Shown: positions 44,985 to 50,573 of the stretch, piece after piece
Position numbering within the stretch: the stretch's first letter is position 1
How the letters are laid out: each line of letters opens with the position of its first letter
Assembly: GCF_015169395.1 (NCBI RefSeq)
Contig: NZ_CP063458.1
Span: forward strand, 4,712,001-4,776,000
DNA from: Humisphaera borealis
Lineage (GTDB): Bacteria; Planctomycetota; Phycisphaerae; Tepidisphaerales; Tepidisphaeraceae
DNA length: 64,000 nucleotides
Direction: 5' to 3'
Notes under the pieces: model-generated
The model's input: only the letters and a program-made list of their open reading frames with translations
Told to the model about the DNA's origin: nothing
Database searches by the model: none
Made by a program: the position numbers and the translations under genes

Positions 44985-45003
44985 CCGCAAGGCTCAGGGC
45001 CTT

Positions 45004-45039
45004 GTGGCATGGGGAAGCGAGTACGCTTGCCCATGCCAC
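45004..45039. repeat. Dispersed hairpin repeat, GTGGCATGGGCAAGCG family
   Basis: The arms 45004-45019 and 45024-45039 pair with one mismatch around GTAC-type loop sequence. It starts 20 bases after the FN3 gene stop and is the same family as 46453-46492 and 50484-50573. Confidence 0.82.
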
Positions 45040-45068
45040 CCTGAATCGGTCTTTCTCACATGTACCCC

Positions 45069-45100
45069 AGGGCGAACGGCATCCGCCGTTCGCCCTCTTT
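45069..45100 (+). terminator. Terminator of the FN3 giant gene
   Basis: A perfect 11-bp stem AGGGCGAACGG / CCGTTCGCCCT (45069-45079 with 45086-45096) is followed by CTTT. Confidence 0.75.
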
Positions 45101-45173
45101 CATGGATGCCGGGCGTACCGACGACTTTTCCGTTACACTCCCCGTTTCGACCCGATTCGGAGATACTGCAACG

Positions 45174-46442
45174 ATGAACGTCCTTCTGCTCGGCAACGGC
45201 GCCCGTGAACACGCTCTGGCCTGGAAACTGGCCGACTCGCCTCGCGTGAAGTCGCTTTACGCGCTTCCCGGCAATCCCGGCACCGCCCAGGTCGCCGACA
45301 ACGTGGACATTTCGCTCTCCGATTTCGCGAAGATCGAGCAGTTCGTCCAACAGAACCGGATCGAGCTCGTCGTCGTCGGGCCGGAAGATCCGCTCGCCGC
45401 TGGCATCACCGATCACCTGGCCAAGACCGGGGTGCGCGTGTTCGGCCCGAACAAGGCCGGTGCCCAGCTCGAGGCCGACAAGTGGTTTGCCAAAGAGCTG
45501 ATGCGGCAGCAGTCGATCCCGACCGCCGAGGCCCGCAGCTTTACCAGCGCCGATGCCGCGACCGAGTTCGTCAAGGTCCGCAACGCGCCGTGCGTCGTAA
45601 AGGCGGCGGGGCTGGCCAAGGGCAAAGGCGTCAGCGTCTGCTACCGCGTTGCCGACGCCCTGGAAGCAATCGACCAGGCCATGCGGCAGAAGGTGCACGG
45701 GGCTGCCGGCAATCGCGTCGTCATCGAAGAGCTCATGTCCGGGCCGGAAGTCTCGGTTCTCGCGTTCGTTGATGGCCGCAGCATCTACGTCATGGAGACC
45801 AGCCAGGACCACAAGCCGGTCGACGATGGCGACACCGGCCCGATGACCGGCGGCATGGGCGCGTATTCGCCGACGCCCGTCATCACCGACGCCGTCCTGA
45901 AGCAGGTCGAGCGCGAGGTTCTCGTGCCCACGCTCGACGGCCTGGTCCGCGACGGCATCGACTACAAAGGCGTCCTCTACGCCGGCCTGATGGTCACCGC
46001 GGCGGGGCCGCGCGTGCTGGAGTTCAACTGCCGCTTCGGCGACCCCGAAACCCAGCCGCTGATGATGCGCCTTAAGACCGACATCGTCGACATCATGGTC
46101 GCGGTCTGCGACGGCAAGCTCGACCAGATCACGCTCCAGTGGGACCCGCGGCCGGCGATCTGCGTCGTCGCCTGCAGCAAGGGCTACCCCGGCAAGTACC
46201 CGACCGGCGTTCCCATCACCGGCGTCGCCGACGCCGACGCCATGCCCGACGTCAAAGTCTTCCAGGGCGGTACGAAGATCGTCGACGGCAAGCTCGTCAC
46301 TGACGGCGGCCGCGTGCTCGGCGTTACCGCGATCGGCAACACCATCGCCGAGGCCCGCGAGAAGGCCTACAAGGCGATGGAAAAGATCCACTTCGACGGC
46401 ATGCACTATCGCAGGGACATCGGGCACCAAGCGCTGCGGTAG
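45174..46442 (+). CDS. purD: Phosphoribosylamine-glycine ligase (GARS)
   Basis: 422 aa from the ATG at 45174; the upstream in-frame stretch from 45060 overlaps the terminator and is not coding. Second step of purine synthesis: ATP-dependent joining of glycine to 5-phosphoribosylamine in the cytosol. The N-terminus VLLLGNGAREHALAWKL is the PurD signature, followed by the VVGPEDPLAAGI segment. The ATP-grasp domain has PCVVKAAGLAKGKGVSVC, the GPEVSVLAFVDG strand, GPMTGGMGAYSP and the metal-binding VLEFNCRFGDPETQ. Length and order are standard. No other pur genes are adjacent. It converges on addB with a hairpin repeat between the two. Confidence 0.97.
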   Translation: MNVLLLGNGAREHALAWKLADSPRVKSLYALPGNPGTAQVADNVDISLSDFAKIEQFVQQNRIELVVVGPEDPLAAGITDHLAKTGVRVFGPNKAGAQLEADKWFAKELMRQQSIPTAEARSFTSADAATEFVKVRNAPCVVKAAGLAKGKGVSVCYRVADALEAIDQAMRQKVHGAAGNRVVIEELMSGPEVSVLAFVDGRSIYVMETSQDHKPVDDGDTGPMTGGMGAYSPTPVITDAVLKQVEREVLVPTLDGLVRDGIDYKGVLYAGLMVTAAGPRVLEFNCRFGDPETQPLMMRLKTDIVDIMVAVCDGKLDQITLQWDPRPAICVVACSKGYPGKYPTGVPITGVADADAMPDVKVFQGGTKIVDGKLVTDGGRVLGVTAIGNTIAEAREKAYKAMEKIHFDGMHYRRDIGHQALR

Positions 46443-46452
46443 GGGGCTATCA

Positions 46453-46492
46453 GGGTGGCATGGGCAAACGAATACGTTTGCCCATGCCACCC
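46453..46492. repeat. Dispersed hairpin repeat, perfect 18-bp stem
   Basis: GGGTGGCATGGGCAAACG and its exact complement (46453-46470, 46475-46492) flank loop AATA. It lies between convergent purD and addB, is followed by five A residues, and could terminate both transcripts. Confidence 0.85.
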
Positions 46493-46513
46493 AAAAACCC
46501 TCCAATTCGCGAT

Positions 46514-49500
46514 TCATCCGCGCTTCTTCCTCATCGCTTCCAGCGATTCTTCACGCTTCATTGACTCCAGTTTCCGGTACGAATTCACCGGCCGCTCGAA
46601 GCGGCACACCGCTCTGAAATCACACCTCGGGCAGGGCGATTCGTCTTCGAACCAGTACGGCGCGACGTCGATCTCGCCGGCGGCGATCTTGCCGGTCAGC
46701 TCGGCGACCTTCCCTTCTACGAAATCGAGCAGCAGCCGAAAGTCCTCTTCCTCGGCGATGTCGGTTGTCTCTCGCAGGCCGAACGAGCCGTCCTTCTTGT
46801 AATACATCGCGACGACGGGGGAATTGCCGGCCTCTGTCTCCTTATCGAACGCCTTGGCGTGGGTGTCCTGGATGATGCCGCGCGGCTTGCTCGCCAGCAG
46901 GAACTCCGGCGTTGTCGGGTCCTGGGCTTCGCTGGGGTGGTCAACGTCCTGCAGGTTCCGCCACAGGCGCGACGTCAGGCCGGCAACGGGAAGCATCGGG
47001 CGGCCGCGCATGGTCAGGCCGGCCCGGTCGATTACCATCATCGAAGCCAGCAGCCGCAGCGTCAGCCCGTGAAACACGCTCGCCATCGACAGCCGTTGCT
47101 CGGTCATCCGGTAGTCGTAGACGGCCAGCGCCTGGGTCGGCGTCTTGTCGATGCGGTCGATCTGCCCGCGCAGGCGGGCGGTCGAGCCGTCGGGCATCAT
47201 GATCGGCGGGCTTTTCAGCTTGGAGTCGTCCCGTCCGAACGGCACCGCCGCCCGGATAGGCGTGAACTCGCCGCGCCGCAGTTGCTCGGTCATCGTGGCG
47301 AAGATCATTCCGAGCATGCGCTCGACACGGGTGACGATGTAATGCCCCCGCGCCTCGGCCAGGAAACGTCCGCCGTGCAACTGCCGGGCGATCGGCTGCA
47401 CCCAGTTCCGCACCAGCCAGGCGATCTCGTCGGGCGTGAGCTCGACGAGGTTTCGCTTCGTGTTCAGCACCGCATCGATCACCCGCTGCAGCACGTCGTG
47501 GTAGATTCGGCTCAGCTCCAGGTTCGAAATGTCAGCGGTCGGCCGACGGCTGAGCTTCAGTCCGTACCCCGCAAAGTGCTGGAACGGGCATGACGCAAAG
47601 CTTTCGAGCTGGGCCGCGCTGACCGTCAGCGGCGGCGCGAAGAGCTGCTGGGTGACGGCTTCGGACAGCTTCGGATGATTGCTGTAAGTCAGCGACGGCC
47701 ACGCGAGGTTGACGAGCCGGTCGACGGCGACGCACGACTCCAACTCCGACGTGACGGACATCCTTGGGTGGCATCCGAATGGTATGGCGACCGGGGTGTA
47801 CGGCCTGCTGGCCAGCCAGTCGTAGAGCGGCCGTCGCCAGTCGTTTGCGATCGGCGAGCTGGCGTCGGCATTGGCGTCGTGCAACTGCCGGGCCCAGTCG
47901 AGCATCGTGCCGACGAGTGCCCGCGGCGTCGACAGTTGCTCCATCGGCGACTGGTGGCATTGCTCCATTGGCGCATCGGGGACCAGCGCCCGCAGCCGGT
48001 CCCAGAATTCCGACGAATCCAGCTTCGCGCCGCGTTCGCTCGCCTGGGGTCGCGACACGATCAGCCGGTGCGACGCCCGTGTGAACGCGACATACGCCAA
48101 GAATCGTTCGTCGAGCTGCTTGCGTTCGATATCGGCGTCGATCGCGATGTTTCGCCGGTGCAGTTCGCGGCGTTCGGGTGCGGACAGCAGCGAGCCGTCG
48201 CGGTGGGATCTCGGGAACATCCCCCGGCTCAGGCCCAGGACGAACACCGCCTTGGCGTCGATCGATCGCGTGCGGTCCACCGTGCCGACGAGCACCTGGT
48301 CGAGCGTGGCCGGCGGGATGGCCAGGTCGAAACCGTCGAGACCCGTTTCAAGCACTTCGATGAACTCCGCCGGGTGCATTTCCTCGTCGCCGAGCACTTC
48401 CACCATCTCCTGCAACAACTGCTGAAGCTGGCTCCAGACCTGCTCGTGCTCGCCGGCCTGCTCGGGATTGCGCTCTGCTTCGGCGTCGATCCAGCTGGCG
48501 ACGGTTTGGCGGACGCCGAACGCTTCGATCACCTGTCCGACACCGATCGCCATCGTTCGCAGCGTCGCCGGCCCCGCAGTGCGGCCGAGCAAAGCGATCA
48601 GCGGGTTCAATCGCTCCTGCAGGTGCGAACGGACCGCGTTCAGGTCGCGCCCCGTGGGCGGGAGGGTGGTTTGTACCGCGGTTACATCACCGGCCGCTTC
48701 GGCTTTCGCCAGGGTATCGTCGGTTTCGTCCGGCGGCGGGGCGGCGGGCTCGAACTCTTCGTCGCCGGGCAGGCTCTCCCGGCTGTAGCCGAGCGACGTT
48801 TCGTTCAGCCACGCCGAAGCGGTGATGCCGAACTCGCGTACGCGGTTCTCGAGCCGGTCGGCCTCGGGCTGGGTCAGGCCGGACAGTTCGGTCTTGCCGA
48901 GTGCGATCACCGCTTCCGGCGACCAGCGGTCGCGGGCGATCCACACCGCCGCGCGGACGAACCGGATCAGCGGATGGTGCGACGCCGGCCGACGCCGGTC
49001 GGCAAAGTACGGAATGCCGTGCTCGGCAAACGCCGCATGGATCAGGTGCAGGTAGTCCGACATGCCACGGACGAGCACCAGGATGTCGCGCCGGCGGAAG
49101 CCATCGGTGCGGAGCAGGTCACCGATGCACGCCGCGACGCGCTGAACCTCGGTGCGGGTGTCGGGGGCTTCAATGAAGTCGACGGATGCAGGATCGGGGG
49201 CGACGGATGAAGCGGTGGTGTCCGACGACCAGAGACGGGCTTCAATGTGCTTCAGCGCGTCGGCCTGAAATCGCCGGGGCTCGTGCAACGGCAGGGGGGA
49301 TTCGATTTTCACGCCGGCCTTCTGCATCGTGCGGTAGAGCCGCTGGTAGGCGACCTCGGTGCGATGGAAGGGGCTCAGATCGTCGGGCAGGCGTTTGGGG
49401 TCGCCGAGCACGGCGCTGTCGGGCGGGAGGGTGAGGTTGATCTCCATCCGCTCGGCGACGGCGGCCACTTCGGCGAGGGTCAGCCGTTCGTTCTCGGTGA

Positions 49501-50125
49501 ACTCGTAGAACGCGTCGACGAACACCAGAGCGCTGTTGAGCGATTCGGCGCGGCGCAGCCGGCGGGTAATCTCCTGCCGCCGCTTCTCGGGGTCGAGCCG
49601 ATCCTGGCCGAGGTATTGCTGATAGTGGCCGTACAGCAGTCGGAGGTCGGCGAGCTTGGCGTGCAGCGACGGCGAAGCGCCCGACTTGCCGAATTGATCG
49701 ATGACGTCGCCGAGATCGGTCAGCGGCTGGCCGGACCGCTCGAAGTCGTCGAACATCGCATCCACCGATGCGGCCAGGCCCGGCCGCCGGGCGGACGAAC
49801 CGAAATAGCGAAGTTGGTCATGGTGCCGCCAGAGCAGCCGACCGATGACCATCTGCCGACCTGCCGACGATACCTGGGGCATCGCCATGCCGCCGACTTC
49901 GTCGAGGACGGCCTGTCCGAGCGATTCCATGCCGACGACGCGCACCCGGGCGAACGCGCCGAGACGAGCGACCAACGCCCGTTCGTATTCGAACGTCGCC
50001 TGGCGCGGGACGATCAGCCAGATCGGCCGGCCCAGCGGCTGACTGCGGCAATGCCCGGCGACGAGGTCGAGGGTGCGGTAGGTTTTGCCGGTCCCGGCGC
50101 GGCCGACGACGAATTGAACGGGCAT
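46514..50125 (-). CDS. addB: AddB-type subunit of ATP-dependent nuclease/helicase
   Basis: 1203 aa from the ATG at 50125, which has a perfect SD (AAGGAGG); the longer frame to 50329 runs through an inverted repeat and is not coding. The N-terminus has Walker A GRAGTGKT (residues 8-15) in an AddB/RexB-like inactive helicase core. The C-terminal third has a PD-(D/E)XK nuclease region: GQIDRIDK with Asp990 and VYDYR with Asp1004, where the usual Lys is Arg1006. Cys846 plus CPRCDFRAVC (Cys1165, 1168, 1174) match the 4Fe-4S staple of AddB nucleases. With AddA it would process double-strand breaks for recombination. No addA is in the window. Confidence 0.88.
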   Translation of the reverse strand: MPVQFVVGRAGTGKTYRTLDLVAGHCRSQPLGRPIWLIVPRQATFEYERALVARLGAFARVRVVGMESLGQAVLDEVGGMAMPQVSSAGRQMVIGRLLWRHHDQLRYFGSSARRPGLAASVDAMFDDFERSGQPLTDLGDVIDQFGKSGASPSLHAKLADLRLLYGHYQQYLGQDRLDPEKRRQEITRRLRRAESLNSALVFVDAFYEFTENERLTLAEVAAVAERMEINLTLPPDSAVLGDPKRLPDDLSPFHRTEVAYQRLYRTMQKAGVKIESPLPLHEPRRFQADALKHIEARLWSSDTTASSVAPDPASVDFIEAPDTRTEVQRVAACIGDLLRTDGFRRRDILVLVRGMSDYLHLIHAAFAEHGIPYFADRRRPASHHPLIRFVRAAVWIARDRWSPEAVIALGKTELSGLTQPEADRLENRVREFGITASAWLNETSLGYSRESLPGDEEFEPAAPPPDETDDTLAKAEAAGDVTAVQTTLPPTGRDLNAVRSHLQERLNPLIALLGRTAGPATLRTMAIGVGQVIEAFGVRQTVASWIDAEAERNPEQAGEHEQVWSQLQQLLQEMVEVLGDEEMHPAEFIEVLETGLDGFDLAIPPATLDQVLVGTVDRTRSIDAKAVFVLGLSRGMFPRSHRDGSLLSAPERRELHRRNIAIDADIERKQLDERFLAYVAFTRASHRLIVSRPQASERGAKLDSSEFWDRLRALVPDAPMEQCHQSPMEQLSTPRALVGTMLDWARQLHDANADASSPIANDWRRPLYDWLASRPYTPVAIPFGCHPRMSVTSELESCVAVDRLVNLAWPSLTYSNHPKLSEAVTQQLFAPPLTVSAAQLESFASCPFQHFAGYGLKLSRRPTADISNLELSRIYHDVLQRVIDAVLNTKRNLVELTPDEIAWLVRNWVQPIARQLHGGRFLAEARGHYIVTRVERMLGMIFATMTEQLRRGEFTPIRAAVPFGRDDSKLKSPPIMMPDGSTARLRGQIDRIDKTPTQALAVYDYRMTEQRLSMASVFHGLTLRLLASMMVIDRAGLTMRGRPMLPVAGLTSRLWRNLQDVDHPSEAQDPTTPEFLLASKPRGIIQDTHAKAFDKETEAGNSPVVAMYYKKDGSFGLRETTDIAEEEDFRLLLDFVEGKVAELTGKIAAGEIDVAPYWFEDESPCPRCDFRAVCRFERPVNSYRKLESMKREESLEAMRKKRG

Positions 50126-50221
50126 TCGGCCTCCTTGCCGGGACGGGAAATCGGCTCCCCCGCGGCAACCGCGAACGATACGGGTCAGCACCCGTGCGGG
50201 CAAGAATTCGGGCGGTCGGCG

Positions 50222-50343
50222 CAGGGCAATCGCATGCGCCCATTGTGGTGCAGGCTTTAGCCTGCATCCGAGCATGTGCAGGCTGAAGCCCGCACCACAA
50301 ACGCCACCGCGCACATTCGAGTCAGGCACATGCGATTGCCCTG
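50222..50343. repeat. Nested inverted repeat element, 122 bp
   Basis: Outer arms 50222-50236 and 50329-50343 are perfect 15-base complements. Inner arms 50244-50266 and 50277-50299 are 23 bases each with two mismatches. It lies about 100 bases upstream of addB. Confidence 0.82.
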
Positions 50344-50483
50344 GCGGTCGGCGACTGTGTTGAAAGCCATTGAGTGCGATTTAAAAACAGCGTTATAGCG
50401 AGTGCTCATCGCAGATCTCGGTGGCTTTGTTTTGCCGAATTCGTCGTTTTGGCGCCACGCGACTGTCGGACGATTCCGTTGCT

Positions 50484-50573
50484 GGGTGGCATAGGCAAGC
50501 GTACTCGCTTGCCCGTGTCGAACGGCAATCGGCGTCCACCACGGGCAAGTGAGTACGCTTGCCCATGCCACCC
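50484..50573. repeat. Composite dispersed hairpin repeat, two inverted units
   Basis: Arms 50484-50517 and 50540-50573 (34 bases) are reverse complements with two mismatches. Each arm is itself a hairpin of the GTGGCATGGGCAAGCG family seen at 45004 and 46453. Confidence 0.85.

Follow-up and report, generated by a model that had tools for sequence, protein, structure and literature searches.

The window, which is the whole 64,000-nt stretch analysed here, covers positions 4712001-4776000 of a genome, probably of class Phycisphaerae, that consists of a single 7.19-Mb contig. Its hairpins of interest lie beside three genes whose products were identified through Pfam: a protein with fn3 repeats upstream, PurD (GARS domains) and AddB (ADDB_N, PDDEXK). 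The initial annotation had assigned the hairpins at three places to one repeat family. Their positions are confirmed, and a 16-mer from the hairpin arms (GTGGCATGGGCAAGCG) has nine matches in the whole window at up to three mismatches, against 1.19 expected and with none of 100 shuffles reaching nine. The exact 16-mer is confined to right arms (45024-45039; 50556-50571, minus strand), and the other arms differ from it by one base.

The first hairpin (45002-45041, 40 bp, no strand assigned) begins 17 nt past the stop of the fn3 gene and is a family-1 copy with a degenerate left end (TT instead of GG) and one stem mismatch (GGGGAAGC); its core at 45004-45039 has 16-bp arms, and the RNA minimum free energy computed for 45002-45041 is -29.4 kcal/mol. 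The second, also of family 1 (46453-46492, 40 bp, no strand assigned), lies 10 nt past the purD stop, between the convergent purD and addB genes, and forms a perfect 18-bp stem with a 4-nt loop (tip ACG-AATA-CGT; -36.9 kcal/mol). Both are double-foot REPs, that is, single long palindromes bounded by GTGG and CCAC. The third site, upstream of addB, is a complete 90-bp family-1 dimer, or REPIN (50484-50573, no strand assigned). It comprises a left REP unit of 34 nt with a GGGTGG foot/guide and a hairpin (50484-50517, plus strand; tip GCG/CGC, type A, with a single G-to-A stem change), a 22-nt spacer delimited by alignment (50518-50539, no strand assigned) and an inverted right unit of 34 nt (50540-50573, minus strand; type A, its tip altered on one side to GCG/CAC). 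The unit model R2 scores 57.0 bits for the left unit (contig positions 4762484-4762517) and 57.8 bits for the right one (4762540-4762573), and the 41-nt arms of this A/A homodimer are 88% complementary. The perfect stem at 46453-46492 and the inverted pair at 50484-50573 had thus been described correctly; the three sites do belong to the same family, but they are not equivalents, since one is a 90-bp dimer and two are 40-bp double-foot derivatives. Their proximity is only mildly unusual, with five triples of sites within 5.6 kb genome-wide (partly overlapping) against 0.75 expected at random.

The window hairpins are very probably ordinary members of a genome-wide REP/REPIN family in a little-studied phylum. 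Family-1 heads (GGGTGGCATGGGCAA) occur 129 times in the genome at up to one mismatch and heads of a sister subfamily, family 2 (GGGTGCCATGGGCTG), 91 times, with no match to the reversed-pattern control in either case. The two families, with 220 heads in total, occupy at least 139 sites, recovered from 130 extracted stretches, among which are 83 dimers of 82-95 bp (most commonly 90 bp) and 11 double-foot palindromes of 36-40 bp. A complete family-1 element measures 90 bp and contains two 34-nt units, the second inverted, arranged head-out around a 22-nt spacer. Each unit reads GGGTGG followed by CATGGGCAA-xxx-TACT-xxx-TTGCCCGTG, the GTGG foot abutting the base of a 12-bp hairpin whose loop is the 4-nt TACT and whose third stem pair is a conserved T.G wobble. 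GT[A/G]G-tagged REPs share this layout, having a palindrome of 20-50 nt and a tag 0-2 nt from the stem, and the pairing of two inverted units across a short spacer in all 83 dimers, with a fixed combination of unit types, is that of REPINs, defined as inverted REP dimers (Bertels and Rainey 2011, PMC3116915). We presume that these dimers move as one unit. Two family-1 units, at contig positions 486779 (L006) and 577970 (L007), resemble each other in their flanks, and segmental duplication may therefore have multiplied some of the copies.

Two kinds of stem tip recur in family 1, GCG/CGC (type A) and CGG/CCG (type B). Family 2 follows the same plan at about 89-95 bp, with inner TG/CT, tips GCG or ACG (type A) and CGG (type B), and a GTGC foot that strictly departs from the GT[AG]G tag. 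All 36 family-2 dimers combine an A-type with a B-type unit, and family-1 dimers include 21 exact A/B pairs and about ten A/A pairs, the window dimer among the latter; no free B/B (CGG-CGG) dimer was found in either family among the recovered dimers. This strict asymmetry between left and right hairpins and the coexistence of subfamilies are a few unusual details within a known kind of element.

As is typical of REPs, these copies are numerous and mostly extragenic: 80 of 86 dimers lie between genes, where random placement would put only 19%, although such fractions are approximate, the genes having been called with a simple codon-usage script. The dimers lie at a median of 55 nt from a 3′ end and 135 nt from a 5′ start, in agreement with the gene-end position initially proposed, and are under-represented between divergent genes. 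This placement, together with the high stability of the hairpins, would also be expected of terminators or mRNA 3′ stabilisers maintained at each gene end by host selection on the hairpin. We regard that explanation as highly unlikely, given that no T-tract follows the stems, none of the three window sites is called as an intrinsic terminator, no Rfam family is matched and the stem changes private to single copies are mostly uncompensated, as detailed below. The hairpins may affect mRNA ends nonetheless, and a secondary use at some sites is possible.

The flanks of the dimers bear on how they were inserted. The outer ends are 15-nt near-perfect terminal inverted repeats and element length is uniform, which would suit a MITE derived from a DDE-transposase insertion sequence, with the GGGTGGCATGGGCAA ends serving as the terminal inverted repeats cut by the DDE enzyme. 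Such an origin is extremely improbable, because both ends fold into hairpins of their own with covarying stems, the gene framed by sister units encodes an HUH/Y1 transposase (RAYT) and not a DDE enzyme, and 67 of 70 dimers lack a target-site duplication, the same rate as with shuffled flanks. A pyrimidine dinucleotide (YY) lies directly outside the head in 81-84% of dimer ends; this flank and the missing duplication fit HUH/Y1 chemistry, and not DDE MITEs. Comparison of the purD loci of 23 relatives yielded no clean empty site, as gene order downstream differs among them; the element is absent downstream wherever the end of purD is readable, and in one relative (L390) the place is taken by a REP whose stem differs.

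The initial annotation had noted paired changes that preserve the stem and had read them as support for selection on structure or for repair by copying. Stem tips do covary (score 0.277 against 0.122 in shuffled data, with 0 of 500 shuffles as high, for 33 units of which 27 are distinct), and 30 cells in this analysis have both sides changed. These paired changes mainly define subfamilies, with tips GCG/CGC, CGG/CCG and ACG/CGT. Private changes, scored against each subtype consensus in 158 aligned units, follow a different pattern: of 112 changed pairs, 101 are altered on one side only and 11 on both sides, nine of the latter still pairing. Stem-preserving change is therefore mainly a property of subfamilies and not of single copies, and uncompensated changes, named in advance as evidence against the reading, predominate among private changes but not at the subfamily level. 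Pairing was thus required while subfamilies spread, and single copies afterwards decay with little repair. Selection for structure can accordingly be upheld for the period of spread, but not at each site; the predominance of one-sided private changes argues against ongoing selection on structure at individual sites and favours a mobile element for which structure is important during movement. Repair by copying did not hold up as a general force, with 4 of 77 elements sharing private arm changes against 1.4 under the null (p = 0.052, not significant). The dimers at contig positions 3148862 and 89846 have private changes common to both arms, and arm-to-arm copying is possible in a few dimers such as these.

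We propose with high confidence that the hairpins are GT[A/G]G-tagged REPs, that the mobile unit is the 90-bp REPIN-like dimer, probably spread by a RAYT, and that the 40-bp copies are its double-foot remnants. Under this model, the RAYT would recognise single-stranded DNA by its foot and hairpin and would insert the element beside a pyrimidine dinucleotide, leaving the target unduplicated. E. coli TnpA_REP cleaves single-stranded REPs at CT (PMC8266576), and single-stranded cleavage and strand transfer by the cognate RAYT would be predicted for these units. Slippage between the GGGCAAGCG direct repeats of both units would then delete the centre of a dimer and leave a 40-bp double-foot palindrome; the copies at 45002-45041 and 46453-46492 correspond to the outer halves of a dimer joined without its centre. 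This central-deletion route appears preferable to regarding the 40-bp palindrome as a separate mobile form, which we consider unlikely. A separate form would account for the abundance of double-foot copies in the congener G001, where about seven of 13 sampled sites have forms of approximately 39 bp, as opposed to 11 beside 83 dimers here. In the present genome, however, the arms coincide exactly with the outer halves of family-1 dimers, the loops match either unit and no family-2 double-foot copy was found among the recovered sites; furthermore, central deletion of an inverted dimer is the published explanation for double-foot REPs (PMC6006769).

Eleven Y1_Tnp matches were found in the genome, and no RAYT lies inside the window. 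One intact open reading frame, at contig positions 1060208-1060777 on the minus strand, is framed by inverted family-2 units at 1060141-1060174 (plus) and 1060801-1060834 (minus). Its product (P0001) has the HUH motif, catalytic tyrosine and YIxxNP signature of RAYT/TnpA_REP proteins (motifs EHVH, WQ and YIHDNP), passes the curated NCBIfam model NF047646 REP_Tyr_transpos (89.5 bits; cut-off 80) and matches Pfam Y1_Tnp, with a weak match to the solved TnpA_REP chain 4er8. The complete REP-RAYT-REP unit spans 694 bp (L053 1149-1842; contig positions 1060141-1060834) and is located between open reading frames that, judged by eye, are DnaA-like and tRNA-dihydrouridine-synthase-like. The two units at its ends are CGG-type, even though all free family-2 dimers are A/B. 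Scanning the 11 Y1_Tnp loci with the unit model matched only this locus and a weak unit 1.1 kb from another (L051), and revealed no RAYT framed by family 1. The REP-associated transposase that had been anticipated is hence present in the genome, but it is not local, the sole close RAYT being more than 3 Mb away from the window, and it is framed by the sister subfamily instead of family 1. Because of this framing, mobilisation of family 1 by a RAYT is something that we infer. A tentative, and on balance doubtful, extension is that the pairing of unlike hairpins gives the REPIN true left and right ends that the RAYT must tell apart, and that family 1 is a population left over from a time when the same RAYT lineage had another specificity, before it shifted to family 2. 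If true, a transposase would be seen changing its repeat substrate inside one genome.

Genomes rich in the exact head GGGTGSCAYGGGCAA are the present one, that of the congener G001, and G004 and G011; the 57 other genomes searched have it once or not at all. The congener has other stem tips, and G004, a genome of the same taxonomic family, encodes a RAYT that is 55% identical and framed by family-1-type units (GGGTGGCATGGGCAAGTACYCTTGCCCGTG). RAYT homologues in relatives (about 40-55% identity) are often framed by hairpins whose stems differ but whose head, GGGTG[GC]CA[TC], is shared; within this head, the GT[AG]G-type foot known from published REPs takes the form GTGG. Hairpins headed by GGGTG[GC]CAY occur at 10 of 20 RAYT loci in other genomes, nine times as outward pairs; of the 23 purD loci used as controls, two have them. 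Several metagenome genomes of Phycisphaerae contain multiple copies of similar dimers whose tips differ. Exact matches to the motif in Proteobacteria and other groups were dismissed as chance matches, their surrounding sequence having no hairpin. In the metagenome-assembled genome CSMAG_2921 (L079, L103, L107, L113, L114, L131), a head GGGTGGCATGGGCAAGCGG is followed by an insert of about 70 nt ahead of CAGCTTGCCCGTG, and these elements constitute a long-loop variant of the hairpin.

Like published REPINs, the elements described here are inverted REPs with a short spacer, present in many copies per genome, non-autonomous, intergenic and, in family 2, tied to a RAYT. They differ in forming a planctomycete family, in their GTG[G/C] foot, in the lack of a RAYT of its own for family 1 in this genome and in the dissimilarity of the two units, one with a GCG-type and the other with a CGG-type stem tip, which is without exception in family 2. 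The copies at 45002 and 46453 resemble the double-foot REPs of TnpA_REP subclass 2.4 (PMC6006769), whose long palindrome opens (5′) with GT[AG]G and closes (3′) with the complement of that tag, and the RAYT motifs EHVH/WQ/YIHDNP are near, but not equal, to the signature of that subclass, NH[IFV]H/WQ/YIxNNP. E. coli BIMEs (y and z REPs; PMC8266576; 4er8) likewise combine an unlike pair of REPs, each with a foot and an imperfect hairpin, and an HUH transposase gene framed by REPs; a pyrimidine dinucleotide adjoins their cleavage site, where the counterpart here is the flanking YY only. In place of an E. coli-type bulge, the stems analysed here have a conserved T.G wobble at the third stem pair, and those of family 2 a T.T mismatch; they occur as single dimers and not in tandem arrays. 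GTAG/GTGG REPs known in the PVC superphylum include those of Opitutus terrae and Rhodopirellula baltica, for which the main text of PMC3733652 reports dimers, several families per genome, REP-framed RAYT genes and a GTAG tag with GTGG as its degenerate form, as seen here; that main text does not name the GGGTG[GC]CA[TC]GGGC family and contains no GGGTGG.

REPIN/RAYT systems have mainly been investigated in gamma-proteobacteria; these results add a well-defined planctomycete lineage, in which several subfamilies coexist and the RAYT loci of different genera have the GGGTG[GC]CA[TC] head in common. The two subfamilies, the unlike left and right hairpins and the double-foot derivatives provide natural substrates for tests of RAYT recognition and specificity shifts. 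For annotators, they advise caution, as paired stem changes at these gene ends signal mobility rather than regulatory RNA.

Other repeats and RAYT-like genes were observed in the same genome. Two neighbouring RAYT-like genes lie 0.9 kb apart (L044, L045; contig positions 4158951-4160170), with no REP flanks of the present family detected. An unrelated second hairpin family, TTGTGGTGCAGGCTTTAGCCTGCA...TGCAGGCTGAAGCCCGCACCACAA, is present at window positions 50219-50346, where the hairpin itself (50243-50300) is nested within an outer inverted repeat, CAGGGCAATCGCATG / CATGCGATTGCCCTG. Across the genome, the head of this second family has 69 near-matches, against nine for the reversed control, and several copies surround another RAYT-like gene at contig positions 4684131-4684364.
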